From an uncultured Oscillospiraceae bacterium (GTDB lineage: Bacteria; Bacillota; Clostridia; Oscillospirales; Oscillospiraceae): a stretch of 35,017 nucleotides of DNA. The position numbers and the translations under genes were made by a program. Positions within the stretch are counted from its first letter, which is position 1; every line of letters begins with the position of its first letter. Below the pieces are notes generated by a model. It saw nothing but the letters and a program-made list of their open reading frames with translations. It searched no databases and had not been told where the DNA came from. Location of the stretch: contig CANROF010000027.1 of NCBI GenBank assembly GCA_947632155.1, positions 1 through 35,017 of the forward strand. The letters are read 5' to 3'. Shown here in pieces: positions 1,954 to 34,946 of the stretch.

Positions 1954-4590
1954 TCAGGCAGCGGGCTTGGGAACAATCAGGATGAATTCAGCCTGAGTAT
2001 CCTTATTGACGTACACTGTTACATACGCATCCTTTTCAACAGCGTCCGCAACAGTAGGAGCACTACCAGTGGCATCAACGATTACAGTGTCCTTGGTGAG
2101 ATAAATAACCGTATCGCCGACAACGATGTAATCATTCTCAACGAGGCCAACCTGACTCGCAGTGACCTTAGGAGTAACAGCATTAACAGCGGAAATAGCA
2201 CCATTCTTGAGGCTCAAATTATAAACCGTACCAGGCTCAAGCGTCTTGTTTACTTCACTTGTTGTAACCTGGAGGTTCGTAGCGCCCTCATAGGTTTCAA
2301 CAGCGCCATCCACAAAGAACATGTAGTGGGCCTTGTCCGTAGTCTCACCAGGTCCAACATAAATGGCGTAATTGACGGGAGTCTCAGCGGGCTTCGGGGC
2401 ATCCTCACTATTAGTGGTGACTACATAAATCTTAGTGACGACATTGTTGGAGCCAGCTACAACAACAGCATTCTCATAAGACTTCGCATCAGAGGGGAAC
2501 TGACCATAACCGTTAAGTGTTGTGACTGTAGTCTTATTCTTCGAGGTATCGAGATAGGAGACTACCACCACAGTAGCGCCGTTCGCATACAAGGTCTTCT
2601 TATCAAGCTCGCCGACCTTAGCGGTATTCTTCTTGAGCTCCACCTTCAAAGTTTTGGCAGACTCGCGGATAATGGCAAGGGTGCCGTCAGCAAGCTCAGC
2701 ATATTCATAGAAGCCAGATTTGAGTTCATCTGCCTTGCCAACCTCATATTCAGTCATCAGAGAGCCGTCAACATTCTTATAGAAGTATCCATCATCGTTG
2801 CTCCCTATAGCGAGAGTGACTACTTTGACCTCGCCGGTTTCGGGCATGATAACACGGGCTCTTGAAAGAGCGTTCTGGGCCGCAGTGGGATCCTTGCCAA
2901 GAAGCTCTTCATCATCAGTGAGCTCGCCGTCATTATATCCCTGGGAAGCTTCCGTGATGACATAAATATAATTGGTTTCAACGGTAATGGGCTCTTCAGT
3001 TGTGGCATAAATGATGTGGCCGTAGTTGTCCTCATAGAAGTTGAACTCGGTATTCTTGTCATAAGCATAACCGGCAGAAGTACCAATGACAGCATCCACA
3101 AGTCCCTTTTCCCCGTCAGCCTTGGCGTTGGCGGATTTGTATTTAACAACATTGTCAACGCGGATATAGCCGCTTGCAGAAGAAGCAGTAACCTTACCGG
3201 AGAAAGTCTTCGCAACGTTCATATCAACGATGTTGTAGTTGCTTTCATCCTTCTCAACCGCGGTGAAGATGACGACCTGGCCCTTGGTGAACTCGCTGGT
3301 TTCCTTGAAGCAGGTGATTGTTTTACCATTTACATTAATGCCGAACTTAACATTGGCTTTTTCCGTTGCGGTAGCCTTGTTAATATCACTGGAAGTGAGC
3401 ACATGGACATAGGTATCAATTACAATGATCTTAGCCGCTTTGGTGCTGCTGGTGCCCTCGTCATAAACTTCAACGCGCTGACCGGGCTTATAAACGGTGT
3501 CTCCATTCGCATCTCCGACTTTATATTTTGTCGCAGCTTTGGGAGTACCGTTAGTTGTAACAGAAACGCTGACCTCATCGCCCGTCTTGTAGCCAAGGGC
3601 TTTAAGAGCATCGCTGAGCTTCACGCCGTCAGTGTAGATATTGTTGTACGGAACAGTGAGGGTGGAATAAATGTTGTCTTTCTCCTTACTGCGATCTTTG
3701 TATCCATAGGTGGAACGGCCAAAGGTGTCAACATTCTCAGTAAACTGAAGGTGATAGAGTGTATCGCCAATGGAGCCGGTGTTCACCTGGGTTTTGGTGT
3801 AAGAAACAACATCATCCTCGTGGGCGTTTTTCCAAGTCTGCATGACCAGAAGCGCCTCTACCAAAGAATCAACCGTGTCAATGGGGCTGTCACTTCCGGC
3901 ATCATAGGTATCGTTCTCGGTCTTTTCTACATATACGAGATACCCAACCGTAACGGTCCCGTCGGGGGAGTGATTGATGGCCTGCCAGATCATCTGGGCA
4001 GTCTCTTCACGGGTCAGAGCCTTGTTGGGGTCCTCAATGACGTCCTCAAGGCCAGTCTCAAAGATGTCATACTCACGGGCGAACTCAACGGCCTTGGAGG
4101 TCCAGCTCGCGGTGGCGTTCTTGGGCTCATAGCCGGTGGCCTTCATGAGCATGGTCAGGAGCTCGAAGCCGGTGACGGTGGCGTTGGGGACAAAGGTGGT
4201 ATCGGTCTTGCCGGTGACGATGCCCGCCTCATAGGCATAACCGATGTTGCCGTCCGCCCACTTGTGAGCCTCGCCCACGTCGGTGAAGGGATGATCGCTG
4301 CCAAGCACAGCCAGAGCACGTCCGGCAGGAGTGGTCAGCGTCGCCACGATCAGGGACGCGGCCTCAGCGCGGGTGACAGGCGCAGAGGGTACGAACGCGG
4401 TGTCGCTCTTACCGGTGATAATGCCCATACCGGTAAGGGTGGCGACTGCGAGTTCGTAGTCGGGGTCGATCTCGGTCTTGTCATCGAAGCCCCTGTACGT
4501 CTCCATGTCCGCGTTTGCGGGCAGAATCAGTACGCCGACTGCCATGACTACTGCCAAGACCAAGCACAGGGTCTTTTTCAGAGTCTTCAT
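1954..4590 (-). CDS. S-layer-type protein with N-terminal SLH domains (paralogue 1)
   Basis: An 878-residue exported surface protein. A Sec signal peptide (MKTLKKTLCLVLAVVMAVGV, cleavage probably after PANA) is followed by three SLH-type segments in residues about 40-240. These carry the recognisable patterns TGMGIITGKSDTAFVPSAPV, AGIVTGKTDTTFVPNATVTG and TREETAQMIWQAIN. SLH domains bind pyruvylated secondary cell-wall polymer. The remainder (about 240-878) is Thr/Val/Lys/Asp-rich, predicted beta-rich, and I recognise no enzyme motif in it. Start ATG4590 has AAGGAGG (4600-4606) nine bases upstream; an open frame 16 codons longer has no such site. The gene is visibly less G+C-rich than its neighbours. 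Its 5' region and terminator match those of the SLH gene at 24461-27055. An S-layer or abundant surface protein role is inferred. Confidence 0.88.
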   Translation of the reverse strand: MKTLKKTLCLVLAVVMAVGVLILPANADMETYRGFDDKTEIDPDYELAVATLTGMGIITGKSDTAFVPSAPVTRAEAASLIVATLTTPAGRALAVLGSDHPFTDVGEAHKWADGNIGYAYEAGIVTGKTDTTFVPNATVTGFELLTMLMKATGYEPKNATASWTSKAVEFAREYDIFETGLEDVIEDPNKALTREETAQMIWQAINHSPDGTVTVGYLVYVEKTENDTYDAGSDSPIDTVDSLVEALLVMQTWKNAHEDDVVSYTKTQVNTGSIGDTLYHLQFTENVDTFGRSTYGYKDRSKEKDNIYSTLTVPYNNIYTDGVKLSDALKALGYKTGDEVSVSVTTNGTPKAATKYKVGDANGDTVYKPGQRVEVYDEGTSSTKAAKIIVIDTYVHVLTSSDINKATATEKANVKFGINVNGKTITCFKETSEFTKGQVVIFTAVEKDESNYNIVDMNVAKTFSGKVTASSASGYIRVDNVVKYKSANAKADGEKGLVDAVIGTSAGYAYDKNTEFNFYEDNYGHIIYATTEEPITVETNYIYVITEASQGYNDGELTDDEELLGKDPTAAQNALSRARVIMPETGEVKVVTLAIGSNDDGYFYKNVDGSLMTEYEVGKADELKSGFYEYAELADGTLAIIRESAKTLKVELKKNTAKVGELDKKTLYANGATVVVVSYLDTSKNKTTVTTLNGYGQFPSDAKSYENAVVVAGSNNVVTKIYVVTTNSEDAPKPAETPVNYAIYVGPGETTDKAHYMFFVDGAVETYEGATNLQVTTSEVNKTLEPGTVYNLSLKNGAISAVNAVTPKVTASQVGLVENDYIVVGDTVIYLTKDTVIVDATGSAPTVADAVEKDAYVTVYVNKDTQAEFILIVPKPAA

Positions 4591-4722
4591 GTAGTGTTTC
4601 CTCCTTAATAACACCCCAGCCCCCATGCCCCGCCCCAAAACCCGCTGTTCCCAAGGCTTTTCCCCTCAATTTCCAGCTCCGTTGTGTCTTGCGCGAGTGT
4701 TGTACATATTTTTCCAATTCGT
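4591..4722 (-). promoter_or_regulatory. Conserved 5' leader and putative promoter of SLH gene 1
   Basis: This stretch is almost base-for-base the same as 27056-27187 in front of the second SLH gene. It contains the AAGGAGG ribosome site and, at its far end on the minus strand, GAATTGG followed by TGTACAAC, the only plausible -10-like element. No good -35 is visible. A long, conserved untranslated leader is common for abundant S-layer mRNAs; that role is inferred. Confidence 0.5.
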
Positions 4723-6336: not shown

Positions 6337-6452
6337 TATTATTAAATGTACGGGCCGTGACCGCAGAGAATGCCCTTGGGCACGCCCAGATCGGCCCATG
6401 CTGCGACAACCGACAACCTGCAATCAACGCGAACCCCCACCAATCACGCCGT

Positions 6453-6840
6453 AGGGGCCGGACACTGTGCCGGCCCCTCCCCCGGATTATTGCCATGTCC
6501 CGTTGAACGAAGATGCGCGCGAATCGGATGGACGGGCCGATGTGGTCATCGGCCCCTACGGCCGGACGTTGGGTCTATGCGTTCATTGAAAGGAGATTGC
6601 AAATCGGGAGGACGGGTCGCCGGGGACGGCGACCCCTACAGCAGAAACGAAGGGTTTTGCGTTTTTCGGTAGGTGAAAGCGTATCGGCGGGGACGGGCGG
6701 GTTTGGAACCCGCCCCTACGAGAGAAATGGTAGAATTTTTCATAGAAACAGGCATGTCCGATTCTGTTCGTAGGAAGCGTCTATTTCAACGCAACAACCT
6801 TTATCCTCGCCGTAGGGGTCGCCGTCCCCGGCGACCCGTC
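6453..6840. repeat. Cluster of five short hairpin repeats in a 560-bp gene-free region
   Basis: No gene is supported between 6337 and 6891. Five perfect 9-bp stem-loops occur at 6453-6478, 6534-6555, 6614-6635, 6695-6715 and 6816-6837. They share a format: GACGGG or similar at the left edge and CCCCTAC at the right edge, with a different stem interior in most copies. The last copy is the reverse complement of the third. The second copy is repeated exactly at 34994-35015. They resemble REP-type intergenic palindromes; no mobilising gene is visible here. Confidence 0.8.
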
Positions 6841-6891
6841 CCTCAATTCACCACTCAACTCCCAATCATATGAACGACTCCTACTGGCCGC

Positions 6892-10193: not shown

Positions 10194-10354
10194 ATACTAA
10201 TCCCTAATCAAAAACACCAATTCGCGACGGTCTTTTTTGCGCCATGCTTCGTCAGACGGCTTAACAATACATACAGTATTCTCTGCGCCGTCTTCCTCGC
10301 ATGACGCAAAAAATCCTCGCCGCTCGGTTGGCGTTTTTAATCAGGGATTAGTAT
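10194..10354. repeat. MITE-like palindromic element, long copy
   Basis: The 25-bp ends (10194-10218 and 10330-10354) are inverted repeats with three mismatches, beginning ATACTAATCCC. Inside is the shared core TTCGCGACGG-TCTTTTTTGCGCC, with CGCCGCTCGGT near the right end. A nested inner inverted repeat (TTTTTTGCG with CGCAAAAAA) surrounds about 74 bp absent from the short copy at 30062-30144. It lies between the pur promoter and purE, so it should be transcribed into the leader. No coding capacity. Confidence 0.75.
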
Positions 10355-11017: not shown

Positions 11018-12442
11018 ATGGGCGGTTTTTTTGGAGTAACCTCTAAGCGCAACGCCGTTTTCGACGTGTTTTTCGGGACGGACTACCACTCCCACCTGGG
11101 CACCCGCCGGGGCGGCATGGCCGCCTGGAGCCCGGAGTCGGGCCTCCAGCGGGAGATTCACAACATCGAGAACACCCCCTTCCGCACGAAGTTTGAAAAC
11201 GACGTGCTGGAGCTCAAGGGCGCCAGCTCCATCGGCTGCATCTCCGACACGGACCCCCAGCCGGTGCTCATCCGCTCCCACCTGGGCGTCTACGCCATCA
11301 GCATGGTGGGCATCATTCAAAATCAGGAGGACCTGACGAATCGCTTCCTGGACGCCACCTACGGCCATTTTGAGGCCATGGGCGGCGGCAGGGTCAACCA
11401 GTGCGAGTTAGTGGCGGCCCTCATCAACCAGCAGCGGACCTTTGAGGACGGCATCCGCTTCGCCCAGGAGAAGATCGAGGGCACGGTATCGCTCCTCCTG
11501 CTCACGGACAAGGGGGAGATCATCGCCGCCCGGGACAAAATGGGGCGCCTCCCCATCATCCTGGGCCGAAACGACGAGGGGTACTGCGTCAGCTTCGAGT
11601 CCTTCGCCTTTGAGAAGCTGGGCTACACGTATGAGCGGGACCTGGGCCCCGGGGAGATCGTCCGCGTCACCGCCGGCGGCGTGGAGCGGCTGGCCGCCCC
11701 CGGGGAGAGGATGAAGATATGCACCTTCCTCTGGACCTACTACGGCTACCCCAACAGCCGGTATGAGGGCTCCAACGTGGAGGTCAGCCGCGCCAAAAAC
11801 GGCCGGCTCATGGCGAAGTACGACCGGGAGCACGACGGCATCCCCGACGTGGACTTCGTCTGCGGCGTGCCGGACTCCGGCGTGGGCCACGCCATCGGCT
11901 ACTCCAACGAGAGCTCCATCGACTACGCCCGTCCCTTCATCAAGTACACCCCCACCTGGCCCCGGTCCTTCATGCCCTACAAGCAGGAGATTCGCAACCA
12001 GGTGGCGAAAATGAAGCTCATCCCCGTCCACGAGCTCATCGAGGGGAAAAAGCTCCTCTTTGTGGACGACTCCATCGTCCGGGGCACACAGCTTGCGGGG
12101 ACGGTGGACTTCCTCCGGAATAACGGCGCCCGGGAGCTCCACATGCGCTCGGCCTGCCCGCCCATCATGTACGGGTGCAAGTACCTCAATTTCTCCCGCT
12201 CCACCAGCGAGATGGAGCTCATCGCCCGCCGGACCATCAAGACCCTGGAGGGGGACGAGGGCCTTCGACATGCCGACGAGTACGTGGACGGCACCACCTC
12301 CCGGGGAAAGGCCATGCGCGAGCACATCTGCAAGACATTGAAATTCGATTCCCTTGAGTATCAGACCCTGGACGGGACGCTGTCCGCCATCGGAATCGAC
12401 AAGTGCAAATTATGCACGTATTGTTGGAACGGGGAGGAGTAA
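11018..12442 (+). CDS. purF: Amidophosphoribosyltransferase-like PurF lacking the N-terminal Cys nucleophile
   Basis: A 474-residue PurF homologue, first committed step of purine synthesis (PRPP to phosphoribosylamine). The C-terminal phosphoribosyltransferase half is well preserved, with the PRPP loop [13 protein letters not shown] near residue 350. Cysteines near 379 and 386 plus CKLCTYC near 463-469 resemble the 4Fe-4S ligand pattern of Bacillus-type PurF. The N-terminal Ntn-glutaminase domain is present but begins MGGFFGV instead of the canonical MCGIFG. The Cys1 nucleophile is therefore glycine. The usual Asn-Gly oxyanion segment reads IIQNQEDL. It may use free ammonia or another subunit's ammonia (inference). 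GAAGGAG sets the start, and no upstream start restores a cysteine. It lies between purE and purM. Confidence 0.9.
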
Positions 12443-12447
12443 CTGGC

Positions 12448-12626
12448 TTGAAAGGGCGTTGCCCTTTCAATGCCAAGGGAATACGTGCGGAAAATTATTC
12501 TGAATTTTGCGAAATTCAGAATAATTTCCCTGCTGTCACGCTGCGCGCACGGCCCACAGGGCCGCACACTTGCGTGACAAGAGGGATTTTTCCCGACGTA
12601 CATGCCGCCGGGAAAAATATTGAAAT
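12448..12626 (+). repeat. Four-stem structured repeat element, copy A (purF-purM spacer)
   Basis: Four stem-loops follow each other. Stem 1: 12448-12457 with 12461-12470. Stem 2: 12492-12507 with 12512-12527, 16 bp, loop TGCG. Stem 3 outer: 12534-12541 with 12572-12579; inner: CGGCCC (12550-12555) with GGGCCG (12559-12564). Stem 4: 12587-12595 with 12609-12617. The element ends in AATATTGAAAT. It begins six bases after the purF stop and is read in the operon's sense. Other copies are at 16210, 21443 (inverted) and 34741. Confidence 0.88.
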
Positions 12627-12656
12627 ATGGGAGAATAAGGAAAGGATTTTATCTAT

Positions 12657-13697
12657 ATGAATGATTCCAAATCCGATTTTTACGCCTCCGCCGGGGTGGA
12701 CATCACGGCGGGGTACAGGGCTGTGGAGCTGATGAAAAAGCACGTCCGGCGCACGCTCATACCCGGCGCGGACGACGACATCGGCGGCTTCGGCGGGACG
12801 TTTGTGCCCGATCTGGCCGGGATGCGCCAGCCCGTCCTCGTCTCCGGCACCGACGGCGTGGGGACGAAGATAAAAATCGCCTTTGACCTCAACAAGCACG
12901 ACACCGTGGGCATCGACTGCGTGGCCATGTGCGTCAACGACATCATCTGCTGCGGCGCCAAGCCCCTCTTTTTCCTGGACTACATCGCCTGCGGGCGGAA
13001 TATCCCGGAGAAGATCGCCGCCATCGTGGGCGGCGTGGCGGAGGGATGCGTCCGCTCCGGCTGCGCCCTCATCGGCGGCGAGACTGCGGAGCACCCGGGC
13101 CTCATGCCGGAGGAGGAGTACGACCTGGCGGGCTTCGCCGTGGGAATCGTGGACCGGGAGCGGGTCCTGAAGCCCGACTCCGTCCGGGAGGGGGACGCCA
13201 TCATCGCCCTGCCCTCCTCCGGCGTCCACTCCAACGGCTTCTCCCTGGTGCGCAAGATCCTGGCCGAGTCCGGCACCGCCCTCGGCGACACCTTTGAGGA
13301 GCTGGACGGGCGGCCCATCGGCGAGGTGCTGCTGACCCCCACCAAGCTCTACGTAAAGCCGGTCCTGGCGCTTTTGGACGCGGTGGCGGTCAAGTCCGTG
13401 GCCCACATCACCGGCGGCGGGTTTTATGAGAACATCCCCCGGGCCCTCCCGGAGGGGCTGGGGGCGAAGATCGACAGGGCGAGCCTCCGCGTTCTCCCCA
13501 TTTTCGGGCTTCTGGCGCGGCTGGGGAACGTCCCGGAGCGGGAGATGTTCAACGTCTACAACATGGGCGTGGGCATGACCGTCATCGTCGCCCCCCAGGA
13601 CGCCGAAAGGGCCCTGGAGGTCCTGCGGGAGGCCGGGGAGGAAGCCTACGTCTGCGGCGAGGTCGTCCGGTCGGAAACGAGGATGCGGATATGCTGA
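12657..13697 (+). CDS. purM: Phosphoribosylformylglycinamidine cyclo-ligase (AIR synthetase)
   Basis: A 346-residue enzyme that closes the imidazole ring: FGAM plus ATP to AIR. The AIRS family pattern is clear: DIGGFGGTFVPDLAG, the nucleotide-binding segment VSGTDGVGTKIKIAF, GIDCVAMCVNDIICCGAKPL, GGETAEHPGLM and ITGGGFYENIPRALP. Length is normal. GGAAAGG lies about ten bases before ATG12657. The start is separated from purF by the structured repeat. The last seven bases overlap the start of purN. Confidence 0.97.
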   Translation: MNDSKSDFYASAGVDITAGYRAVELMKKHVRRTLIPGADDDIGGFGGTFVPDLAGMRQPVLVSGTDGVGTKIKIAFDLNKHDTVGIDCVAMCVNDIICCGAKPLFFLDYIACGRNIPEKIAAIVGGVAEGCVRSGCALIGGETAEHPGLMPEEEYDLAGFAVGIVDRERVLKPDSVREGDAIIALPSSGVHSNGFSLVRKILAESGTALGDTFEELDGRPIGEVLLTPTKLYVKPVLALLDAVAVKSVAHITGGGFYENIPRALPEGLGAKIDRASLRVLPIFGLLARLGNVPEREMFNVYNMGVGMTVIVAPQDAERALEVLREAGEEAYVCGEVVRSETRMRIC

Positions 13698-14308
13698 GAA
13701 AAGCGCGGATCGCGGTGCTTGTCTCCGGCGGCGGCACGAATTTGCAGGCCCTTTTGGACGCGGAGAGCAGCGGTATCCTGACCAGCGGCCAGATCGTCCT
13801 GGTCGTCTCCAACGTCAGGAGCGCCTACGCCCTGGAGCGGGCGAAAAACGCGGGGGTGGAGGCACTTTTCCTCTCCAAAAAGGCCCTGGGCGGCACCCAG
13901 GAGGGCTTTGACCGGGCGCTCATGCGGGTGCTGGACGAGCGCGGCATCGACCTCATCGTCCTGGCGGGCTACCTCAACATCCTCACCCCCGCATTCACCG
14001 CCCACTACCCCGGCAGGATCATCAACATCCACCCCGCCCTGATTCCCAGCTTCTGCGGGAAGGGCTTTTACGGGCTCCACGTCCACGAGGCGGCGCTTGC
14101 CTACGGCGTCAAGGTCACGGGGGCCACGGTCCACTACGTCAACGAGGTGTGCGACGGCGGGCAGATCATCGCCCAGAAGGCCGTCTATGTGCGCGACGGC
14201 GACACCCCGGAGACGCTGCAGCGGCGGGTCATGGAGGAGGCCGAGTGGGTCATACTCCCCCAGGCCGCCGAAAAAGTCTCAAAAGAGCTCATGGAGGGAA
14301 AAGCATGA
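13691..14308 (+). CDS. purN: Phosphoribosylglycinamide formyltransferase (PurN)
   Basis: A 205-residue GAR transformylase that uses 10-formyl-tetrahydrofolate to formylate GAR. Visible motifs are VLVSGGGTNLQALLD (phosphate-binding loop), the folate/catalytic region IINIHPALIPSFCGKGFYG with conserved Asn and His, and VTGATVHYVNEVCDGGQII with the catalytic Asp. Length is normal. Its ATG lies inside the purM stop region (ATGCTGA), so translation is coupled. Its own stop overlaps the next start (ATGA). Confidence 0.96.
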   Translation: MLRKARIAVLVSGGGTNLQALLDAESSGILTSGQIVLVVSNVRSAYALERAKNAGVEALFLSKKALGGTQEGFDRALMRVLDERGIDLIVLAGYLNILTPAFTAHYPGRIINIHPALIPSFCGKGFYGLHVHEAALAYGVKVTGATVHYVNEVCDGGQIIAQKAVYVRDGDTPETLQRRVMEEAEWVILPQAAEKVSKELMEGKA

Positions 14309-15009
14309 TCAACGATATAAAAAAGCTCCTTTCGGAAAATACCTACCCCGGCCGGGGAATCGTCCTGGGCCGGTCCCGGGACGACAAAAAGGCCGTTATC
14401 GCCTACTTCATCATGGGCCGCAGCCAGAACAGCCGCAACCGGGTCTTTGAAAGGACCGAGGACGGCATCCGCACAAGGGCCTTTGACGAATCGAAGATGT
14501 CCGACCCCAGCCTCATCATCTACCACCCGGTGCGGAAGGTGGGCAGGACCACCGTCGTCACCAACGGCGACCAGACGGACACCATCCGGGACGCCATGCT
14601 CTCCGGCCACTGTTACCGCCACGGCCTGCACACCCGGACCTTTGAGCCCGACGGCCCCAACTGGACGCCACGCATCTCCGGCGTGGTGGAGCCCGACGGA
14701 AAATACGCCCTGTCCATCTTAAAGTCCATGGACGGGGATCCCACGTGCTGCTGCCGGTATTTTTACGAGTACGACCGGCCCATCCCCGGCACGGGCCACT
14801 TCATCCACACCTACAAACGCGACGGGGACCCCATCCCCAGCTTTGACGGCGAGCCGGAGCGCGTCGCCATCGAGGCGGAGACGGCGGCGGAATTCGCGAA
14901 GCTCCTGTGGGAAAACCTCAACGCCGACAACAAGGTGTCCCTCTATGTGAGCTGCATCGACATCGCCACCGGAAAAGACGACAGCGTCATCATCAACAAG
15001 AACGTGTGA
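14305..15009 (+). CDS. purO: IMP cyclohydrolase, archaeal PurO type
   Basis: A 234-residue protein of the PurO-like IMP cyclohydrolase family, which closes FAICAR to IMP in the last step of the pathway. Recognisable segments include LSENTYPGRGIVLGRS, AYFIMGRSQNSRNRVF, the TFEPDGPNWTPRISGV region and RYFYEYDRPIPGTGHFIHTY. It is not related to the cyclohydrolase domain of bifunctional PurH. The neighbouring transformylase lacks exactly that domain, so the two genes together replace PurH. ATG14305 overlaps the purN stop (ATGA). The family call rests on recognised sequence patterns and context. Confidence 0.9.
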   Translation: MINDIKKLLSENTYPGRGIVLGRSRDDKKAVIAYFIMGRSQNSRNRVFERTEDGIRTRAFDESKMSDPSLIIYHPVRKVGRTTVVTNGDQTDTIRDAMLSGHCYRHGLHTRTFEPDGPNWTPRISGVVEPDGKYALSILKSMDGDPTCCCRYFYEYDRPIPGTGHFIHTYKRDGDPIPSFDGEPERVAIEAETAAEFAKLLWENLNADNKVSLYVSCIDIATGKDDSVIINKNV

Positions 15010-15018
15010 GGTACGAAT

Positions 15019-16203
15019 ATGACCGAATTTGAACTGAAATACGGCTGCAACCCCAACCAGAAGCCGGCGAAAATCTTCATGCGCTCCGGGCGCGACCTGC
15101 CCATCGAGGTGCTGAACGGCCGGCCCGGGTATATAAACTTCCTGGACGCCCTCAACTCCTGGCAGCTTGTCCGGGAGCTCCGGCGCGAGATCGGCCTTCC
15201 CGCCGCCGCCAGCTTCAAGCACGTCTCCCCCGCCGGCGCCGCCGTGGGCAATCCGCTGTCCGAGGAGCTGAAGCGCGCCTGCTTTGTCCATGACATCAAG
15301 GGCCTGGACGACTCTCCCCTGGCCTGCGCCTACGCCCGGGCCCGGGGCACGGACCGCATGAGCTCCTTCGGGGACTGGATAGCCCTGTCGGATGTATGCG
15401 ACGTCGCCACCGCGAAGATCATAAAGCGGGAAGTCTCCGACGGCGTCATCGCCCCCGGCTACACCCCCGAGGCCCTGGAGCTCCTGCGCCAGAAAAAGAA
15501 CGGCGGCTACAACGTGGTGAGGATCGACGAGGGGTACGTCCCCGAGCACGAGGAGACAAAGGAGGTCTTTGGCGTCACCTTCTCCCAGGGCCGCAACGAC
15601 TTCAAGATCGACGCCCAGCTCTTGGGAAACATCGTCACCGCCAACCAGTATCTGCCCGGCTTTGCCGTGCGGGACCTCATCATCTCCCTCATCACCCTCA
15701 AATACACCCAGTCCAACTCCGTCTGCTTCGCCGCCGACGGACAGGCCATCGGCGTGGGCGCCGGCCAGCAGAGCCGCATCCACTGCACGCGCCTTGCCGG
15801 CGGCAAGGCCGACACCTGGCATCTCAGGCAGTCCCAGCGGGTCCTGGAGCTGCCCTTCATAAAGGGCATCGCCCGCACGGACCGGGACAACGTCATCGAC
15901 GGCTTCATCAACCACAACGAGGAGGACGTCACCGCCGACGGCGTGTGGCAGCGGTACTTCACCGAGCAGCCCCGGTACTTCTCCCCGGAGGAGCAGCGGG
16001 AGTACCTGGACAAAATCACCGACGTCTCCCTGGGCTCCGACGCCTTCTTCCCCTTTGGCGACAACATCCAGCGCGCGGCCAAGAGCGGCGTCAAGTACGT
16101 GGCCGAGCCCGGCGGCTCCGTGCGGGACGACAACGTCATTGAGGTCGCCAACAGCTACGGCATGGCAATGGCTTTCACGGGAATGAGACTTTTCCACCAC
16201 TGA
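15019..16203 (+). CDS. purH: AICAR formyltransferase, stand-alone (C-terminal half of PurH)
   Basis: A 394-residue enzyme that formylates AICAR with 10-formyl-tetrahydrofolate. Bifunctional PurH is about 510-530 residues; here the N-terminal MGS-like cyclohydrolase domain is missing and the protein starts directly at the transformylase region (LKYGCNPNQKPAKIF). The catalytic Lys-His pair is present as K67/H68 in SFKHVSPAGAAVG. The conserved end FPFGDNIQRAAKSGVKYVAE is intact. GTGAGGT precedes ATG15019, nine bases after the purO stop. The lost activity is supplied by purO just upstream. Confidence 0.94.
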   Translation: MTEFELKYGCNPNQKPAKIFMRSGRDLPIEVLNGRPGYINFLDALNSWQLVRELRREIGLPAAASFKHVSPAGAAVGNPLSEELKRACFVHDIKGLDDSPLACAYARARGTDRMSSFGDWIALSDVCDVATAKIIKREVSDGVIAPGYTPEALELLRQKKNGGYNVVRIDEGYVPEHEETKEVFGVTFSQGRNDFKIDAQLLGNIVTANQYLPGFAVRDLIISLITLKYTQSNSVCFAADGQAIGVGAGQQSRIHCTRLAGGKADTWHLRQSQRVLELPFIKGIARTDRDNVIDGFINHNEEDVTADGVWQRYFTEQPRYFSPEEQREYLDKITDVSLGSDAFFPFGDNIQRAAKSGVKYVAEPGGSVRDDNVIEVANSYGMAMAFTGMRLFHH

Positions 16204-16209
16204 TCTGGC

Positions 16210-16389
16210 TTTGAAGGGCTGACGCCCTTCAAATGCCAAGGGGAACGTGCGGAAACCCAGACCTGAATTCTGCGGAATTCAGGTCCGGATTTCCTGCTGT
16301 CACGCCGCCCGCGCCGCCGTAGGCGGCACAAGCGGCGCGACAAAAGGGATTTTTTCCAAGGCACATGTCCTTGGAAAAAATATTGAAAT
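16210..16389 (+). repeat. Four-stem structured repeat element, copy B (purH-purD spacer)
   Basis: Stem 1: 16210-16219 with 16224-16233. Stem 2: 16260-16270 with 16275-16285, loop TGCG. Stem 3 outer: 16298-16308 with 16332-16342, one mismatch; inner: GCCGCC (16313-16318) with GGCGGC (16322-16327). Stem 4: 16350-16361 with 16369-16380, 12 bp. It ends AATATTGAAAT, begins six bases after the purH stop, and has the same orientation as the operon. Stem sequences differ from copy A but remain paired. Confidence 0.88.
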
Positions 16390-16416
16390 TGGGATTATAA
16401 AATCGGAGGCGTTTTA

Positions 16417-17688
16417 ATGAAAATTCTTGTGGTGGGCGGCGGGGGCCGCGAGCACGCTATTATCAAGGCCATTCGGAAAAATCCGGCGGTGGACGTCGTC
16501 TACGCCCTGCCGGGGAACGGCGGCATCGCCGCGGACGCGGTGTGCGTGCCCATCAAGGCCACGGACATCCCCGGCATCGTGAAATTCGCCTCGGACACCC
16601 GGGTGGACTACGCCGTTGTGGCCCCGGACGACCCCCTGGCCATGGGGTGCGTGGACGAGCTGGAGGCCATAGGGGTCCCCTGCTTCGGTCCTAAGAAGAA
16701 CGCCGCCATCATCGAGTCCAGCAAGGCCTTTTCCAAGGCCCTGATGAAAAAATACCGCATCCCCACGGCGCAGTTCCGGACCTTCACCGACATGGGCGAG
16801 GCCATAAAATACGTGGAGCTCATGGGCGCGCCCATCGTGGTCAAGGCCGACGGCCTGGCCCTGGGCAAAGGCGTCACCGTGGCAAAGACCGTCTTAGAGG
16901 CCAAGGAGGCCATCCGGGAGATGATGGAGGGCGGCAAATTCGGCGCCTCCGGCTCCACGGTGGTCATCGAGGAGTACCTGGAGGGGCCGGAGGTGTCGGT
17001 CCTCTCCTTCACCGACGGGAACGTGGTGGTGCCCATGGTGTCCAGCATGGACCACAAGCGCGCCGGGGACGGCGACACCGGCCCCAACACCGGCGGCATG
17101 GGTACCGTGGCGCCAAACCCCTACTACACGCCGGAGGTGGCAAAGCGGTGCATGGAGGAGATCTTCCTCCCCACGATCCGCGCCATGAACGCCGAGGGGC
17201 GGACCTTCAAGGGCTGCCTCTACTTCGGCCTCATGCTCACCGCTGACGGCCCCAAGGTCATAGAATATAACTGCCGCTTCGGCGACCCGGAAACGCAGGT
17301 GGTCCTGCCGCTTTTAGAGTCCGACCTGCTCACCGTCATGCGGGCGGTGACGGAGGGGCGGCTCTCCGAGACGGAGGTCCGCTTCTCCCACAAGTCCGCC
17401 TGCTGCGTGGTGCTGGCCTCCCGGGGCTACCCCGTGAAGTACGAAAGCGGCTTTGAGCTGGTCCTGCCGGAGACGCCGGAGGGCCGGGAGATATACGTGG
17501 CCGGCGCGGAGGCGCGGGACGGGAAGCTCCTCAGCCACGGCGGCCGGGTCCTGGGCTGCGTGGCGGTGGAGGACACCCTGCAAAGCGCCGTTTCCGGGGC
17601 CTACGCCTTAGCCGACAGCGTGAAATTCGAAAACGGCTTCTGCCGCCGGGATATAGGAAAACGGGCGTTGGCGGCCCTGCATGGATAA
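16417..17688 (+). CDS. purD: Phosphoribosylamine-glycine ligase (GAR synthetase)
   Basis: A 423-residue ATP-grasp ligase that joins phosphoribosylamine and glycine. The N-domain starts ILVVGGGGREHAIIKAI, the family signature. The ATP-grasp core has PIVVKADGLALGKGVTVA, IEEYLEGPEVSVLSF, DTGPNTGGMGTVAPNPYY and the metal-binding YNCRFGDPETQ. The C-terminal domain is complete, and length is normal. TCGGAGG lies well spaced before ATG16417. It follows repeat copy B and is 12 bp from purL. Confidence 0.97.
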   Translation: MKILVVGGGGREHAIIKAIRKNPAVDVVYALPGNGGIAADAVCVPIKATDIPGIVKFASDTRVDYAVVAPDDPLAMGCVDELEAIGVPCFGPKKNAAIIESSKAFSKALMKKYRIPTAQFRTFTDMGEAIKYVELMGAPIVVKADGLALGKGVTVAKTVLEAKEAIREMMEGGKFGASGSTVVIEEYLEGPEVSVLSFTDGNVVVPMVSSMDHKRAGDGDTGPNTGGMGTVAPNPYYTPEVAKRCMEEIFLPTIRAMNAEGRTFKGCLYFGLMLTADGPKVIEYNCRFGDPETQVVLPLLESDLLTVMRAVTEGRLSETEVRFSHKSACCVVLASRGYPVKYESGFELVLPETPEGREIYVAGAEARDGKLLSHGGRVLGCVAVEDTLQSAVSGAYALADSVKFENGFCRRDIGKRALAALHG

Positions 17689-17700
17689 GAGGTAAGTGAA

Positions 17701-20700
17701 ATGGTATACAGAGTATTTGTGGAGAAACGAAACGGCCTCACCCAGGAGGCCGATTCCCTGGCCGGGGATCTCAGGGAGCTTTTGGGGATAAAAAATCTCC
17801 GGGGCGTCCGGGTCCTCAACCGCTACGACGTGGAGGGCATCGACGAGGAGCTTTTCAAAAGGTCCGTGGCCACGGTCTTTTCCGAGCCGCAGCTTGACGT
17901 GACATACCCGGAGCTCACGGCCCAGGGGACCGTTTTTGCCGTGGAGTACCTGCCGGGGCAGTTCGACCAGCGCGCCGACTCCGCGGCCCAGTGCATCCAG
18001 ATCCTCTCCCAGGGGGAGCGGCCCACGGTCCGCACGGCCAAGGTCTACGTCCTCCGGGGGAAGCTCACCCGCTCCGACCTTGAGCGGGTGAAAAAGTACG
18101 TCATAAACCCGGTGGAGGCCCGGGAGGCGTCCCTGGAGAAGCCCGAGACGCTGAAGACCGACTACGCCATCCCCACTGTCGTTGAGACGCTTGCGGGCTT
18201 TACCTCCCTGACCCACGGCGAGATCGAGGACCTCGTCCAAAAGTACGGCCTTGCCATGGACGCCGACGACCTTATGTTCTGCCGGGACTACTTTAAGTCC
18301 GAGGGCCGGGAGCCCACCATCACGGAGATTCGCATGATCGACACCTACTGGTCCGATCACTGCCGCCACACCACCTTCCTCACCCACATCGACAGCGTGG
18401 AGTTTGCCGACCCCCTCTGTCAGGAGGAATTTGAGGTGTACCTGGCCATGCGGGACTACTGCGGGGACAGAAAGCCCCTGTGCCTCATGGACATCGCCAC
18501 CGTGGGGGCCAAATACCTCAAAAAGCGGGGGCTCCTGCCGAAGCTGGACGAATCCGACGAGATCAACGCCTGCACCGTCAAGATAAAGGTTGACGTGGAC
18601 GGCGAGAGCCAGGACTGGCTGTTGCTCTTCAAAAACGAAACCCACAACCACCCCACGGAGATCGAGCCCTTCGGCGGCGCGGCCACCTGCATCGGCGGCG
18701 CCATCCGGGACCCCCTCTCCGGGCGCAGCTATGTCTACGCCGCCATGCGCGTCACCGGCGCTTCGGACCCCACGGTCCCGGTATCCGAGACGATGGCGGG
18801 AAAGCTCCCCCAGCGCAAGCTGGTCACCGGCGCGGCGGCGGGGTACAGCTCCTACGGCAACCAAATCGGCCTTGCCACCGGCATCGTGGACGAGATCTAC
18901 GACCCCGGCTACGCCGCCAAGCACATGGAGATCGGCGCCGTCCTGGGCGCCGCCCCCGCCGGGAACGTCCGCCGGGAGGTCCCGGCCCCCGGGGACATCG
19001 TGATTCTCCTGGGCGGCCGCACGGGCCGCGACGGCATCGGCGGCGCCACGGGCTCTTCCAAGGCCCACAACGCCCACTCGGTGGAGACTTGCGGCGCCGA
19101 GGTCCAAAAGGGCAACGCCCCGGAGGAGCGCAAGCTCCAGCGGCTCTTCCGCAATCCCCTGGCCACCCGGCTCATCAAGCGCTGCAACGACTTCGGCGCC
19201 GGCGGCGTCTCCGTGGCGGTGGGCGAGCTGGCCGACGGGCTGCTCATCGACTTAAATCAGGTCCCCAAAAAGTACGAGGGCCTGGACGGCACGGAGCTGG
19301 CCATCTCCGAGTCCCAGGAGCGCATGGCCGTGGTGGTGGACCCCCAGGACCGGGACGAATTCCTGCGCCTGGCGGAGAGCGAAAACTTAGAGGCCACCGT
19401 CATCGCCGTGGTCACCGCCGAGCCGCGCCTTGTGATGGAGTGGAACGGCAAAAAGATCGTGGACATCTCCCGTGAATTTCTGAACACCAACGGCGCTTCA
19501 AAGCACACGGACGTGAAGGTGGAGGCCCCCAGGTCCGTGGAGACGCGCCTTACCGGCGATTTTGAGCGGGACATGACGGAGCTGGTGTCTGACCTTAACG
19601 TCTGCTCCAAGCGGGGCTTGGCCGAACGCTTCGACTCCACCATCGGCGCCGCCAGCCTCCTTATGCCCTTCGGCGGCAAATACCAGCTCACGCCCATTGA
19701 GGCCATGGTCCACCGCCTCCCCCTGGACCGGGGCCGCTCCGACGACTGCTCCTTCATGGCCTGGGGCTACAACCCCAAAATAACCGAGGCCAGCCCCTTC
19801 CGCGGGGCGTATCTGGCGGTGGTGGAGTCCGTCTCCAAGCTCATCGCCGCGGGCGCGTCCTTTGAGGACGTGTACCTCACGTTCCAGGAATATTTCTGCC
19901 GCCCCGGCACGAACCCTGAGCGCTGGGGACAGCCCCTGGCGGCGCTTTTGGGCGCCCTGAAGGCCCAGAGGGAGCTGGGGATAGGCGCCATCGGCGGCAA
20001 GGACTCCATGTCCGGCTCCTTTGAGGACCTGGACGTGCCCCCCACGCTTGTTTCCTTCGCCGTCACCATGGGCAAGGAGCGGGACGTCGTCTCCCCCGAG
20101 TTCAAGGCCCCCGGCCACGACGTCATCTGGCTGAAGCCCGCGTACAAAAACGGCCTGCCCACGGCGGAGAGCCTCAAGGCCCTCTACGCCCGGGTGACGG
20201 CCCTCTTCCGGGACGGCAGGGCCGTCTCCGCCTGGACCCCCGCCTACGGCGGCGCGGCGGAGGGCGTCTTTAAGATGGCCCTGGGCAACGGCATCGGCTT
20301 TGCCTTCGCCCCGGAGGCATCGGCCCAGGACATCTTCGCCCACTCCTACGGCTCCTTCATCGTGGAGCTCACCGGCAAGGCCCAGGGGGATCTCCTGGGC
20401 GTCACCACCGCCGGGCCCGCCATCACCCTGGGCGATAAGAGCGTCCCCCTGGACGCCCTCAGAGGCGCCTGGGAGGGCAAGCTCGAGCGCGTCTATCCCA
20501 CCCGGGCCGGCGAGACTGTCCCCGCCCCGGAGTACAGCTTCACCGCCATCACCCGGGCGGCCCCCAAGGCCGGCGTGGCAAAGCCCCGGGTGCTCATCCC
20601 CGTCTTCCCCGGCACCAACTGCGAATTCGACACTGCCCGGGCCTTTGAGGCCGCCGGCGCAGAGGCGAAGATCTTCGTCATCCGCAATCAGACCAGCTCC

Positions 20701-21375
20701 GCCATCGCCCGGAGCGTGGAGGAGTTTGCCCGGGACGTCCGGGACGCCCAGATCGTCTTCATCCCCGGCGGCTTCTCCGGCGGCGACGAGCCCGACGGCT
20801 CCGGCAAGTTCATCACGGCCTTCTTCCGCTCCGCCGCGGTGAAAAACGCCGTCAGCGACCTTCTGGACCGGCGGGACGGCCTCATGGGCGGCATCTGCAA
20901 CGGCTTCCAGGCCCTCATCAAGCTGGGCCTCGTGCCCTTCGGCAAGATAACCGACACGGACCCGAGCTGCCCCACCCTCACCTACAACACCATCGGCCGC
21001 CACCAGTCGCGCCTGGTGCGGACCCGCGTGGCCTCCAACAAGTCCCCCTGGTTCGCGCTCACGAATCCCGGGGAGGTCTACATGGTGCCCATCTCCCACG
21101 GCGAGGGCAAGTTCCTGGCCTCCGCCCAGACCGTGGCGCAGCTCGCCGAGCGCGGGCAGATTGCCACCCAGTACGTGGACCTGGAGGGCCGTCCCACCAT
21201 GGACGTGTCCTACAACCCCAACGGCTCCGTGGCCGCCATCGAGGGCATCACCAGCCCCGACGGCCGCGTCTTCGGCAAAATGGGCCACTCCGAGCGCGTA
21301 GGCGGCCTCTACAAAAACGTCCCCGGCCAGTTCGACATGCGCATCTTCGAGGCCGGCGTCAAGTATTTCAAGTGA
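17701..21375 (+). CDS. purL: Phosphoribosylformylglycinamidine synthase, single-chain (PurL-PurQ fusion)
   Basis: A 1224-residue enzyme that converts FGAR and glutamine to FGAM. Domain order: a PurS-like N-terminal region (about 1-150), two AIRS-type synthetase halves (for example HCRHTTFLTHID, NETHNHPTEIEPFGGAATC and GAIGGKDSMSGSF), then a class I glutaminase from about residue 960. The glutaminase triad is visible: C1066 in GGICNGFQAL, and H1133 with E1135 in PISHGEG. Unlike PurF in this operon, its glutaminase is therefore intact. It is shorter than the roughly 1300-residue proteobacterial enzyme, as is usual for clostridial single-chain forms. AGAGGTAAG precedes ATG17701. Last gene of the operon. 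Confidence 0.96.
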   Translation: MVYRVFVEKRNGLTQEADSLAGDLRELLGIKNLRGVRVLNRYDVEGIDEELFKRSVATVFSEPQLDVTYPELTAQGTVFAVEYLPGQFDQRADSAAQCIQILSQGERPTVRTAKVYVLRGKLTRSDLERVKKYVINPVEAREASLEKPETLKTDYAIPTVVETLAGFTSLTHGEIEDLVQKYGLAMDADDLMFCRDYFKSEGREPTITEIRMIDTYWSDHCRHTTFLTHIDSVEFADPLCQEEFEVYLAMRDYCGDRKPLCLMDIATVGAKYLKKRGLLPKLDESDEINACTVKIKVDVDGESQDWLLLFKNETHNHPTEIEPFGGAATCIGGAIRDPLSGRSYVYAAMRVTGASDPTVPVSETMAGKLPQRKLVTGAAAGYSSYGNQIGLATGIVDEIYDPGYAAKHMEIGAVLGAAPAGNVRREVPAPGDIVILLGGRTGRDGIGGATGSSKAHNAHSVETCGAEVQKGNAPEERKLQRLFRNPLATRLIKRCNDFGAGGVSVAVGELADGLLIDLNQVPKKYEGLDGTELAISESQERMAVVVDPQDRDEFLRLAESENLEATVIAVVTAEPRLVMEWNGKKIVDISREFLNTNGASKHTDVKVEAPRSVETRLTGDFERDMTELVSDLNVCSKRGLAERFDSTIGAASLLMPFGGKYQLTPIEAMVHRLPLDRGRSDDCSFMAWGYNPKITEASPFRGAYLAVVESVSKLIAAGASFEDVYLTFQEYFCRPGTNPERWGQPLAALLGALKAQRELGIGAIGGKDSMSGSFEDLDVPPTLVSFAVTMGKERDVVSPEFKAPGHDVIWLKPAYKNGLPTAESLKALYARVTALFRDGRAVSAWTPAYGGAAEGVFKMALGNGIGFAFAPEASAQDIFAHSYGSFIVELTGKAQGDLLGVTTAGPAITLGDKSVPLDALRGAWEGKLERVYPTRAGETVPAPEYSFTAITRAAPKAGVAKPRVLIPVFPGTNCEFDTARAFEAAGAEAKIFVIRNQTSSAIARSVEEFARDVRDAQIVFIPGGFSGGDEPDGSGKFITAFFRSAAVKNAVSDLLDRRDGLMGGICNGFQALIKLGLVPFGKITDTDPSCPTLTYNTIGRHQSRLVRTRVASNKSPWFALTNPGEVYMVPISHGEGKFLASAQTVAQLAERGQIATQYVDLEGRPTMDVSYNPNGSVAAIEGITSPDGRVFGKMGHSERVGGLYKNVPGQFDMRIFEAGVKYFK

Positions 21376-21442
21376 TTCCCTTTCCGCCAATCCTGTTCGG
21401 GCCGCCGCCCAGGTCGGCTCACAGGCTGTCGCAAACCCCCAC

Positions 21443-21626
21443 ATCAATATTTTTTCCGGCGACATGTGCGTCGGAAAAAATACCTTTTGTTTTGCTTAAG
21501 TGTGCGGCCCTACGGGCCGTGCGCGGAGCAAAACAGCAGGGAAATTATCTCTGAATTCCGCAGAATTCAGAAAAATTTCTCGCACGTTCCCCTTTGTCGG
21601 AAAAGCCCGCCAGGGCTTTTTCGACA
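21443..21626 (-). repeat. Four-stem structured repeat element, copy C (inverted)
   Basis: Read on the minus strand it has the same order as copies A, B and D. Plus-strand coordinates: stem 4, 21450-21458 with 21472-21480. Stem 3 outer, GTTTTGC (21489-21495) with GCAAAAC (21528-21534); inner, 21505-21510 with 21514-21519. Stem 2, CTGAATTC (21551-21558) with GAATTCAG (21563-21570). Stem 1, 21595-21608 with 21613-21626, one G-U pair. It lies between purL and the MATE gene, antisense to both. Confidence 0.85.
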
Positions 21627-21632
21627 GTCTGC

Positions 21633-21654
21633 GGGCCGCCGCCCACGGCGGCCC
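21633..21654. terminator. GC-rich hairpin upstream of the MATE promoter
   Basis: GGGCCGCC (21633-21640) pairs perfectly with GGCGGCCC (21647-21654). There is no T tract, so it is only a weak candidate for ending purL transcription. No better terminator is seen after purL. Confidence 0.35.
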
Positions 21655-21680
21655 ACTTCTTATGTTTCCCTTGACAAAAT

Positions 21681-21709
21681 TTATAAAAAGTTTATGATTA
21701 TGCTATAAT
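21681..21709 (+). promoter_or_regulatory. Extended -10 promoter of the MATE gene
   Basis: TGC-TATAAT (21701-21709) is an extended -10. The base-17-spaced -35 position reads TTATAA, a weak match. A TTGACA at 21671 is 27 bp away and too far to pair with it. Confidence 0.6.
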
Positions 21710-21734
21710 ACCCTAACATTTTGAGGTCATACTT

Positions 21735-23090
21735 ATGCAAGAGAATAAAATGGGCGTTATGCCGGTGGGGAAGCTCCTTATCACCATGTCCCTCCCCATG
21801 ATGGCGTCCATGCTGGTCCAGGCGCTGTACAACGTGGTGGATTCGGTGTTTGTCAGCCGCGTCAGCGAGGCTGCCTTCACCGCGGTATCCCTGGCCTTCC
21901 CCATCCAGACGCTGATCATCGCCTTCGCCAACGGCGTGGGCGTGGGCATGAACGCCCTCCTGTCCCGGGCCCTGGGCGAAAAGCGGCCCGACGAGGCAAA
22001 CCGTGTGGCCCGCCACGGGCTTATCCTCATGGCCGCGTCCTTCCTCGTTTTCCTGATCTTCGGTCTGTTCCTCACCCGGCCCTTCATGCGCACCCAGGTC
22101 ACCGCCGACACCGACCCGCAGATATTGGAATACGGCGTGCAGTATCTGTCCATCGTCTCCGTCTTTTCCTTTGGCATCTTCGGCCAGATCTACGCCGAAA
22201 GGCTCTTTCAGTCCACGGGCAAGACCGTCTGGTCCATGGTCACCCAGGGCGTGGGGGCCGTCATCAACATCATCCTGGACCCCATCATGATCTTCGGCCT
22301 GCTGAGCTTTCCCCGGATGGAGGCCGCCGGCGCGGCCGTCGCCACGGTCATCGGCCAGATTACCGCCGCCATTCTCGGCATTGTGCTCAACTTTTTTGTG
22401 AACCGGGAGATCAAGCTTGAGCTTCGCAGGCTCCTTGAGCTGGAGGGCCGGGTCTTCCGGCAGATGCTCCTCATCGGCATCCCCACCACCGTCATGCAGG
22501 CCATCGGGTCCCTCATGAGCTACGTGATGAACCGGATCCTCATGGCCTTCAGCTCCACCGCCGCGGCGGTGTTCGGGGCGTATTTCAAGATTCAGTCCTT
22601 TGTCTGTATGCCCGTGTTCGGCTTGAACGCCGGGATGGTGCCCATTATCGCCTACAACTACGGCGCCCGGAGCAGGGAGCGCATCACACAATGTATCAAG
22701 CTCAGCGTGATCTTCGCCGAGGCCATCACCACCGTGGGCTTTCTCGTATTCCAGCTCTTCCCCCAGGCGCTCCTGCGCTTTTTTGACGCGTCGCCCTACA
22801 TGCTGGAGCTGGGCGTCCCGGCTCTGCGGATCATATCCATCCACTTCCTGCTGTGCGGCGCCTGCATCGTCATCGGCTCGGTATTTCAGGCCCTGGGGAA
22901 CGGCCTCTACTCCGCCATCGTCTCCTTTTTGCGCCAGGTGGTGGTGCTGCTGCCGGTGGCCTATATCTTCTCTAAGACCATCGGGCTCTCCGCCGTGTGG
23001 TGGTGCTTCCCCATCGCCGAGGCCGTGTCCCTGGCCACAAGTCTCTTCCTGCTCGCCAGGATCCATAAGAACGTAGTTTCAAAACTCTGA
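21735..23090 (+). CDS. MATE family efflux transporter
   Basis: A 451-residue integral membrane protein with about 12 predicted transmembrane helices in two halves. The MATE family start is clear: GKLLITMSLPMMASMLVQAL then YNVVDSVFVSR. It also has the typical QAIGSLMSYVMNRIL and GLNAGMVPIIAYNYGARSRE in the second half. Such transporters use Na+ or H+ gradients to export drugs or metabolites; the substrate cannot be inferred. TGAGGT precedes ATG21735. The DUF975 gene follows after 30 bp and is likely co-transcribed. Confidence 0.93.
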   Translation: MQENKMGVMPVGKLLITMSLPMMASMLVQALYNVVDSVFVSRVSEAAFTAVSLAFPIQTLIIAFANGVGVGMNALLSRALGEKRPDEANRVARHGLILMAASFLVFLIFGLFLTRPFMRTQVTADTDPQILEYGVQYLSIVSVFSFGIFGQIYAERLFQSTGKTVWSMVTQGVGAVINIILDPIMIFGLLSFPRMEAAGAAVATVIGQITAAILGIVLNFFVNREIKLELRRLLELEGRVFRQMLLIGIPTTVMQAIGSLMSYVMNRILMAFSSTAAAVFGAYFKIQSFVCMPVFGLNAGMVPIIAYNYGARSRERITQCIKLSVIFAEAITTVGFLVFQLFPQALLRFFDASPYMLELGVPALRIISIHFLLCGACIVIGSVFQALGNGLYSAIVSFLRQVVVLLPVAYIFSKTIGLSAVWWCFPIAEAVSLATSLFLLARIHKNVVSKL

Positions 23091-24402: not shown

Positions 24403-24430
24403 CGGGCCCCGCGCTAACGCGCGGGGCCCG
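24403..24430 (-). terminator. Terminator of SLH protein gene 2
   Basis: Perfect 12-bp stem (24403-24414 with 24419-24430), loop TAAC. The stem is the same as at 1903-1930 after SLH gene 1, while the T tail is weaker here. Confidence 0.75.
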
Positions 24431-24460
24431 GAAATGGTATGCGGAGATAAGTTCAGGGGA

Positions 24461-27055: not shown

Positions 27056-27187
27056 GTAGTGTTTCCTCCTTAATAACACCCCAGCCCCCATGCTCCGCCC
27101 CAAAACCCGCTGTTTCCAGGGCTTTTCCCCTCAATTTCCAGCTCCGTTGTGTCTTGCGCGGGGATTGTACAGGATTTTCCAATTCCT
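27056..27187 (-). promoter_or_regulatory. Conserved 5' leader and putative promoter of SLH gene 2
   Basis: Near-identical to 4591-4722. The far end on the minus strand carries GAATTGG and TGTACAAT, the likely -10. The identity stops at about 27187, where the divergent promoter for the next operon begins. Confidence 0.5.
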
Positions 27188-30062: not shown

Positions 30063-30144
30063 TACTAATATCCAATTAAAATGAGCCATTCGCGACGGCC
30101 TTTTTTGCGCCGCTCGGTGTCTCATTTTAAATGGATATTAGTAT
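30062..30144. repeat. MITE-like palindromic element, short copy
   Basis: The 24-bp ends (30062-30085 and 30121-30144) are inverted repeats with one mismatch, beginning ATACTAATATCC. The 35-bp core TTCGCGACGGCC-TTTTTTGCGCCGCTCGGTG matches the core halves of the long copy at 10194-10354. It begins on the last base of the first feoA stop codon and lies inside the feo operon. Confidence 0.8.
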
Positions 30145-34709: not shown

Positions 34710-34740
34710 AAACCAAGCAAAAAGCGCCGTCTTTCAACCT

Positions 34741-34924
34741 GTCGAAAAAGCCCTGACGGGCTTTTCCGACAAGGGGAACGTGCGGGAAATTTTCGCTGAA
34801 TTTTGCGAAATTCAGCGAAAACTTCCCTGCTGTTTTGCTCCGCGCACGGCCCGTAGGGCCGCACACTCCGCAAAACAAAAGGGATTTTTTCCAAGGCACA
34901 TGTCCTTGGAAAAAATATTGAAAT
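34741..34924 (+). repeat. Four-stem structured repeat element, copy D
   Basis: Stem 1: 34741-34753 with 34758-34770, one A-C mismatch. Stem 2: 34790-34803 with 34808-34821, 14 bp, loop TGCG. Stem 3 outer: TGTTTTGC (34831-34838) with GCAAAACA (34870-34877); inner: CGGCCC (34847-34852) with GGGCCG (34856-34861). Stem 4: 34885-34896 with 34904-34915, the same sequence as in copy B. It ends AATATTGAAAT. It lies after the coat genes in the sense orientation. Confidence 0.88.
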
Positions 34925-34946
34925 TGAGTTTTTTGACAACCTGATT

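Follow-up and report, generated by a model that had tools for sequence, protein, structure and literature searches.

Intergenic repeats with a covarying four-hairpin core, probably mobile in one form and fixed behind operon stop codons in another

A stretch of 35,017 nt from an uncultured Oscillospiraceae bacterium (contig CANROF010000027.1 of assembly GCA_947632155.1; this whole stretch is called the window here) contains four copies of an intergenic repeat of about 200 nt with a core of four hairpins, which we regard with fair confidence as members of a mobile family. Two of them, copies C and D, would be MITEs moved by means of an IS1182-family transposase, and the other two, copies A and B, would belong to a second kind that has become fixed. 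The sequences themselves show how many copies there are, what their ends and target duplications look like, which insertion sequences are candidate partners, how the stems pair and how the copies are oriented.

Results

Four copies with one architecture in two kinds

Copies A, B, C and D were found where the preliminary description of this DNA had put them, and reading and aligning the four confirmed their shared anatomy. In the alignment, stem 1 is followed by an ACGTGCG linker, stem 2 with its loop TGCG, CCTGCTGT and the long stem 3, whose inner loop has three bases. Then come a linker resembling AAAAGGGATTTTTT, stem 4 and finally AATATTGA. Copy A (12444..12623, plus strand; stem 1 at 12444-12475, stem 2 at 12487-12533, stem 3 at 12534-12579, stem 4 at 12586-12618) occupies the purF-purM gap, with purF ending at 12442 and purM starting at 12657. 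Copy B (16206..16386, plus strand; stem 1 at 16206-16238, stem 2 at 16249-16297, stem 3 at 16298-16342, stem 4 at 16349-16381) occupies the purH-purD gap, with purH ending at 16203 and purD starting at 16417. The genes around A and B are named from their protein sequences, which we take to be those of purF, purM, purH and purD. The minimum free energy z-scores were -6.7 for A, -7.8 for B, -4.8 for C and -6.7 for D against 200 dinucleotide shuffles each, and for none of the four did any of the 200 shuffles fold as well as the native sequence.

The single architecture stood up to this analysis but a uniform type did not, as A and B are of one kind and C and D of another. Copy C, of the first kind and in our reading a MITE, covers 21422..21631 on the minus strand including its terminal inverted repeats (left end CAGACTGTCGAAAAAG, right end GCGACAGCCTG), and copy D, of the same kind, covers 34736..34943 on the plus strand, likewise with its terminal inverted repeats (CAACCTGTCGAAAAAG ... 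TTTTTTGACAACCTG). The terminal inverted repeats of these two reach beyond the limits first given, and the segment taken for stem 1 in C and D includes the left terminal repeat. Copies A and B have no such ends, no right end and no target duplication; neither they nor their kin show the terminal inverted repeats and target duplication by which MITEs are recognised.

A repeat dispersed through the genome

That the four copies share one element was correct, but "four-copy" was not. A covariance model (R1) built from 56 own-genome copies (alignment A2) was run on 20 stretches of 20 kb of the same genome, picked irrespective of copies; in these 400 kb it found 21 full-length copies, in addition to the four in the window. 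By extrapolation, a genome of 2.5 Mb would hold about 130 copies, and this copy number rules out a local element of four copies. BLAST-type searches of the own genome returned 197 and 169 candidates, the best 40 of which were scored in each case, and 400 kb of another species of the genus (G012) held 9 full copies. A pattern search found 68 copies, of which two (L104, L120) were judged false by eye and removed before counting, and 66 were kept. Five matches from a pattern scan of named genomes look like chance, the stems of the element being absent by eye, and exact-pattern scans of viral contigs gave no match.

Ends, target duplications and a candidate partner of the first kind

Most of the copies aligned with their flanks, C and D among them, have terminal inverted repeats, the left end being CAGnCTGTCrAAAAAG or close to it and the right end ...TTTTTTGACAnnCTG or close to it. 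These elements are short, about 210 nt from end to end, and carry no transposase gene. Both ends were recognised by script, with 60-nt flanks, in 33 of the 66 own-genome copies. In 18 of these 33, direct repeats lie 0-7 nt from the ends and score higher than the 99th percentile obtained with mismatched flanks; the other 15 showed no clear target duplication. All but one of the 18 repeats (17/18) fold as hairpins, and 12/18 are terminator-like on a lenient count (at least five T behind the hairpin, or as many A ahead of it, within 10 nt). Copy C is abutted at both ends by a 24-nt hairpin repeat, at 21632..21655 on its left and 21398..21421 on its right (both minus strand; 21/24 identical), and no target duplication was detected at copy D, which is not in the 33-copy set. 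In another genus (G270), similar ends and flanking hairpins were seen by eye at most of 30 loci.

Four IS1182 copies in genus mates (L128, L130, L135 and L136; 1496-1648 nt) adjoin perfect palindrome duplications, which are 23, 31, 31 and 23 nt long. The end of the element, CAGTYTGTCAAAAAAC, is shared by L128, L130 and L136, and L135 has a similar one, CAGTCTGTCGACAAAC. With NF033551, the IS1182 family transposase entry with a cut-off of 270 bits, the proteins of the four reach 371-440 bits, and all five tested, including L123, whose ends were not matched to the element, score 286-440 bits. The shared ends, the hairpin duplications and the matching IS1182 elements together lead us to read C and D as MITEs, for whose movement in trans an IS1182-family transposase is probably responsible. 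The original suggestion of a non-autonomous repeat mobilised in trans thus gains support for C, D and their kin but not for A and B, which are without ends. In the own genome, PF13751 (IS1182-type transposase) matches at 7 places, all of which bear a different end, GGGGCTGTGAAAA. Six genus mates (G005, G006, G010, G018, G019 and G022), each with 53-59 scored element matches, gave no PF13751 match. In these genomes, as in the own one, the partner may have been lost or may be another element. At L062 and L065, own-genome IS1182 copies end in a hairpin GGGGCTGTGAAAA..TTTTCACAGCCCC, each directly beside an element.

Stems change while pairing is kept

The claim that stem sequences change while pairing is kept was borne out by 56 own-genome copies, in which 28/69 pairs change on both sides (294 cells; 0/500 shuffles); this shuffle count is not a probability, because the structure was voted from the same sequences and the copies of one genome are related. 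When arms were swapped between the distinct stems found among 95 genus copies, own arms paired better than swapped ones in 89/91 cases for stem 1, 52/56 for stem 2, 57/63 for stem 3 and 33/38 for stem 4. The search of further genomes by covariance model, which had been proposed as a check, did find relatives: a model termed R2 scores, at a rough threshold of E 0.001 or better, in 33/61 genomes and 32/60 genera sampled in the taxonomic family, own genome included.

We then have a wider set of 20 loci from 19 genera, read on the strand opposite to that of the preliminary description. They mostly share the order 5'-CCUCGCAGAGUUC-hairpin A-AAUAAA..-hairpin B-ACUUCUC-hairpin C-hairpin D, in which hairpin B equals stem 4 of the window copies (loop like GACAUGUGC), hairpin C stem 3 and hairpin D stem 1; the window copies are without hairpin A, and stem 2 is present in them. 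Alignment A4 contains 16 of the 20 loci, L240, L245, L248 and L252 being omitted as hairpin A or its motif was not recognised in them. In these 16 sequences from 15 other genera, 34/46 pairs change on both sides, with 132 compensatory cells (0/500 shuffles), the structure having been voted from the 16 aligned sequences themselves, and the wide check on covariation thus came out in favour of the structure. Sliding the partners by 1-3 columns lowered the paired cells from 89% to 38-52% in the same 16 sequences. The five-prime arms of hairpins A, B and D differ between all loci (18, 19 and 19), and the outer stem of hairpin C has 16 kinds of five-prime arm in 19. Own arms were favoured every time when arms were swapped across genera (18, 19, 19 and 19), which lends weak support because the hairpins were picked for pairing and a few are not homologous.

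A model built from other genera on the same opposite strand (R3) matches copy A at 12534..12662 on the minus strand with an E of 1.2e-16. It finds matches in 26/197 genomes of the order (15/110 genera), and among 199 genomes of the phylum only in the own genome, in one of the same family and, marginally, in three. An already described Rfam family had been named as the result that would speak against a new element. Within the window no family of Rfam release 15 lies above its gathering score, relaxed settings over 12400-22000 gave three weak matches that are all below gathering scores, and no match overlaps the element in the 20 loci of the wider set. The T-box and L10-leader matches that Rfam gave in L243 and L257 sit elsewhere in those loci, and such an identity was rejected.

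Compensatory change is therefore supported, but alone it is no proof of selection on an RNA; the preliminary description had spoken of selection on structure. In the reading we prefer, it is as a single strand that the core would be constrained to its fold, and this fold would form in the cell.

The strand that folds

The stems pair better on the strand complementary to that of the preliminary description, because A.C mismatches become G.U pairs there. Of 46 stem-variant clusters, 39 have the better fold on this opposite strand, 6 fold equally well on both and 1 has the worse fold there, and the same clusters have 67 G.U pairs on it vs 7 on the other strand. Four sites in the 16 cross-genus sequences show G.U 49 times and A.C once on the opposite strand, and two of the four also alternate with Watson-Crick pairs. 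The cross-genus excess of G.U rests on these four sites, the others being even (18 G.U and 14 A.C); whole-hairpin wobble counts across genera are 88 G.U and 70 A.C, and interior pairs give 55 and 26, with a control of 284 to 239. The conserved wobble pairs suggest that the strand opposite to that first described is the folded one.

In the mobile element this strand might fold as an RNA or as an intermediate of single-stranded DNA, and the operon copies might then be by-products tolerated only with the weaker-folding strand in the message, an explanation to which we give somewhat less than an even chance. The better fold in 39/46 clusters and the 67 to 7 count of G.U argue for it, as do the 49 to 1 at the four sites with two of them switching to Watson-Crick, and orientation is biased in G270 too, at 18 to 2 (p 0.0004; 30 loci of that different genus, 10 of them between convergent genes). 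It is weakened by the even counts outside the four sites and by the genus alignment of 69 pairs, which on the strand first described contains 83 G.U (55 of them from one end pair) and 93 A.C. Whole-element energy favours the opposite strand in 26/30 related stretches, but taken singly the differences do not exceed the spread seen among random windows. No promoter was found on the opposite strand near copy A, and from a weak promoter-like match on that strand near D the start would fall inside a stem. The related copies are, moreover, not independent.

The second kind at operon stop codons

Copies A and B lie in sense within the purine operon and begin 0-1 nt behind a stop codon. A strict script (stem 1 TGGC..TGCCA) collected 12 copies of the second kind, A and B included, and their neighbouring genes were called by a codon-based method, which finds the window's purine genes. 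The upstream gene is on the same strand in 12/12, and the foot of the hairpin lies 0-2 nt after the stop codon in 9/12, the remaining distances being 54, 1491 (the gene was probably missed by the caller) and -18. All but one (11/12) lie between same-direction genes and the other one between convergent genes, and a target duplication was found in 0/12. The other 54 copies, where the neighbours are co-directional, are in sense 19 times vs 9 times antisense (p 0.09), and two of these 19 (L113 and L044) look second-kind by eye. In 19 of the 20 loci from 19 other genera the gene on the side of stem 1 ends towards the element, according to a caller trained on the genome of the window. These orientation data tie the strand first described to the message of the upstream gene, against the evidence of the wobble pairs. 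The earlier proposal of a structured RNA or mRNA-processing element therefore agrees with the orientation and operon position of A and B, but not with the pairing rules, which favour the opposite strand.

An element is present in some species and absent from others when orthologous gaps are compared. In genus-mate purM and purD loci the next gene is preceded by a gap of a few bases, by other sequence or by an element starting at the stop codon, and model R2 at E 1e-10 or better detected the element in 5/29 purF-purM and 10/29 purH-purD loci, although some of the matches are incomplete and contig ends truncate some of the loci. In four purH-purD loci (L191, L193, L194 and L198), read by eye, the end of purH itself is part of stem 1, the 3' arm of which is complementary to two different gene ends. 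Two tandem stem-1 hairpins were seen by eye after the purF stop codon, upstream of purM, in L153 and L155. The purH-purD gap of L185 contains a short remnant, GAAAAAAATATTGAA, which looks like what would be left after deletion of most of an element.

It is also possible, though less likely than not, that A and B represent the original form and that the element is primarily an RNA with a regulatory or processing role in operons and 3' UTRs, which acts in the upstream message, for example as 3'-end protection or a cleavage site, and that C and D arose from it by capture of IS1182 ends. The sense orientation of the second kind in 12/12 and its position at the stop codon in most copies (9/12) would be expected from this, as would the gene ends pointing towards the element in 19 of 20 loci, the use of the gene end in stem 1 at four purH-purD loci and a structure conserved over 15 genera. 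However, no element was detected in 24/29 and 19/29 of the orthologous loci (some cut by contig ends), the G.U pairs favour the complementary strand, and in G000 either orientation is seen among copies of the first kind (19 to 9).

Discussion

In the explanation that we favour, an IS1182-family transposase encoded elsewhere would recognise the ends of C and D (CAGnCTGTCrAAAAA), insertion would take place in a palindromic stem-loop, in many cases a hairpin of terminator type behind a gene, and the whole stem-loop would be duplicated. Copies A and B, which are without these ends, would have been fixed in sense directly after an operon stop codon, where their hairpins form part of the intergenic spacer. 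Their role, in the preferred reading, may be that of a structured spacer parting the 3' end of the upstream message from the next ribosome-binding site. We infer movement by the transposase, folding in the cell and this role from the features above. Almost the same likelihood as to the structured message spacer may be given to a strand whose hairpins the mobile form requires, and mutational homogenisation is a weaker candidate; the sense bias could reflect selection against the other orientation instead of a function.

As a more speculative possibility, the module may lead a double life within one order, as cargo of terminator-targeting IS1182-type MITEs and as a fixed operon module between a stop codon and the next gene. 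Transposition would then continually supply structured 3' UTRs, and the strand at work, as RNA or as single-stranded DNA, would be the opposite one.

Palindrome-correcting replication can also yield compensatory change, and the covariation might be mutational, with template switching in replication homogenising palindromes and no selection on structure. At L119 (around 502) and, by eye, at L253, the two duplications flanking one element differ on both arms and are still paired, so terminator-like hairpins also change compensatorily, and by eye whole stems are exchanged in blocks between copies. We consider this unlikely, as the linkers, loops and wobble sites are conserved between genera, which would not be expected of a blind process; in six differing pairs of duplications, moreover, the differences seen by eye concern the loop only in three, one arm in two and both arms in one.

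MITEs as such are a known kind of element, and so are folded repeats and IS1182 elements that target palindromes. According to excerpts of two articles (PMC5678879, PMC4923244), IS1272 and TnSha1 of the IS1182 family target inverted repeats, partly transcription terminators, without sequence preference, and the candidate partner of our element resembles them in belonging to the same DDE transposase family and in having hairpin targets. The published elements are reported to delete or replace the stem-loop without target duplication, whereas here the insertion sequences and the MITEs sit between two complete copies; in the excerpt of PMC5678879, a stem-loop duplication is drawn only as a possible pathway. 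ERIC, Correia/NEMIS, RUP and BOX are, according to PMC10969869 and PMC2267715, alike in being short, intergenic and gene-free, with terminal repeats and strong folds, and ERIC and Correia affect mRNA processing. Unlike these repeats as described there, the present element has separate covarying hairpins with linkers conserved across genera, hairpin target duplication and an end-less second kind at stop codons. The L17 downstream element (PMC2864571, in part) is also structured, lies just downstream of genes and had its strand chosen with the help of G.U pairs. It is tied to one gene and, in that part of the article, is not described as mobile, and the G.U argument supports its drawn orientation, whereas here it points opposite to the strand of the upstream gene.

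No family in Rfam release 15 is alike, and our literature search found no description of this repeat, although the 3161 candidates in the supplements of PMC8040213 may include it. The family of small mobile elements is apparently undescribed. The combination of whole-hairpin duplication, an order-wide covarying core and a second kind at stop codons was likewise not found in the literature searched. An abundant family is thus missing from Rfam 15, IS1182-type elements occur between two complete hairpin copies whereas the published IS1272 and TnSha1 delete the hairpin, and orthologous operon gaps with and without the element offer natural pairs for the effect of a structured spacer on expression.

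Other repeats in the window

A second MITE-like inverted repeat, with arms ATACTAATCCCTAATCAAAAACACCAA and kin, is present at 10194-10354 and 30059-30147, and ATACTAATCCCTGATTAAAA stretches similar to it flank elements in L002 and L121. Two long minus-strand open reading frames, at 1954-4638 and 24461-27103 (894 and 880 aa), share a start region of 212 nt that is 95% identical (4509-4720 and 26974-27185), and near-identical GGGCCCCGCGC hairpins accompany them at 1903-1936 and 24403-24436. GC-rich inverted repeats (GGACGGGTCGCCGGGGACGGCGACCCCTAC...) occupy 6448-6841, and by eye a similar unit lies in the purF-purM gap of another species (L177).
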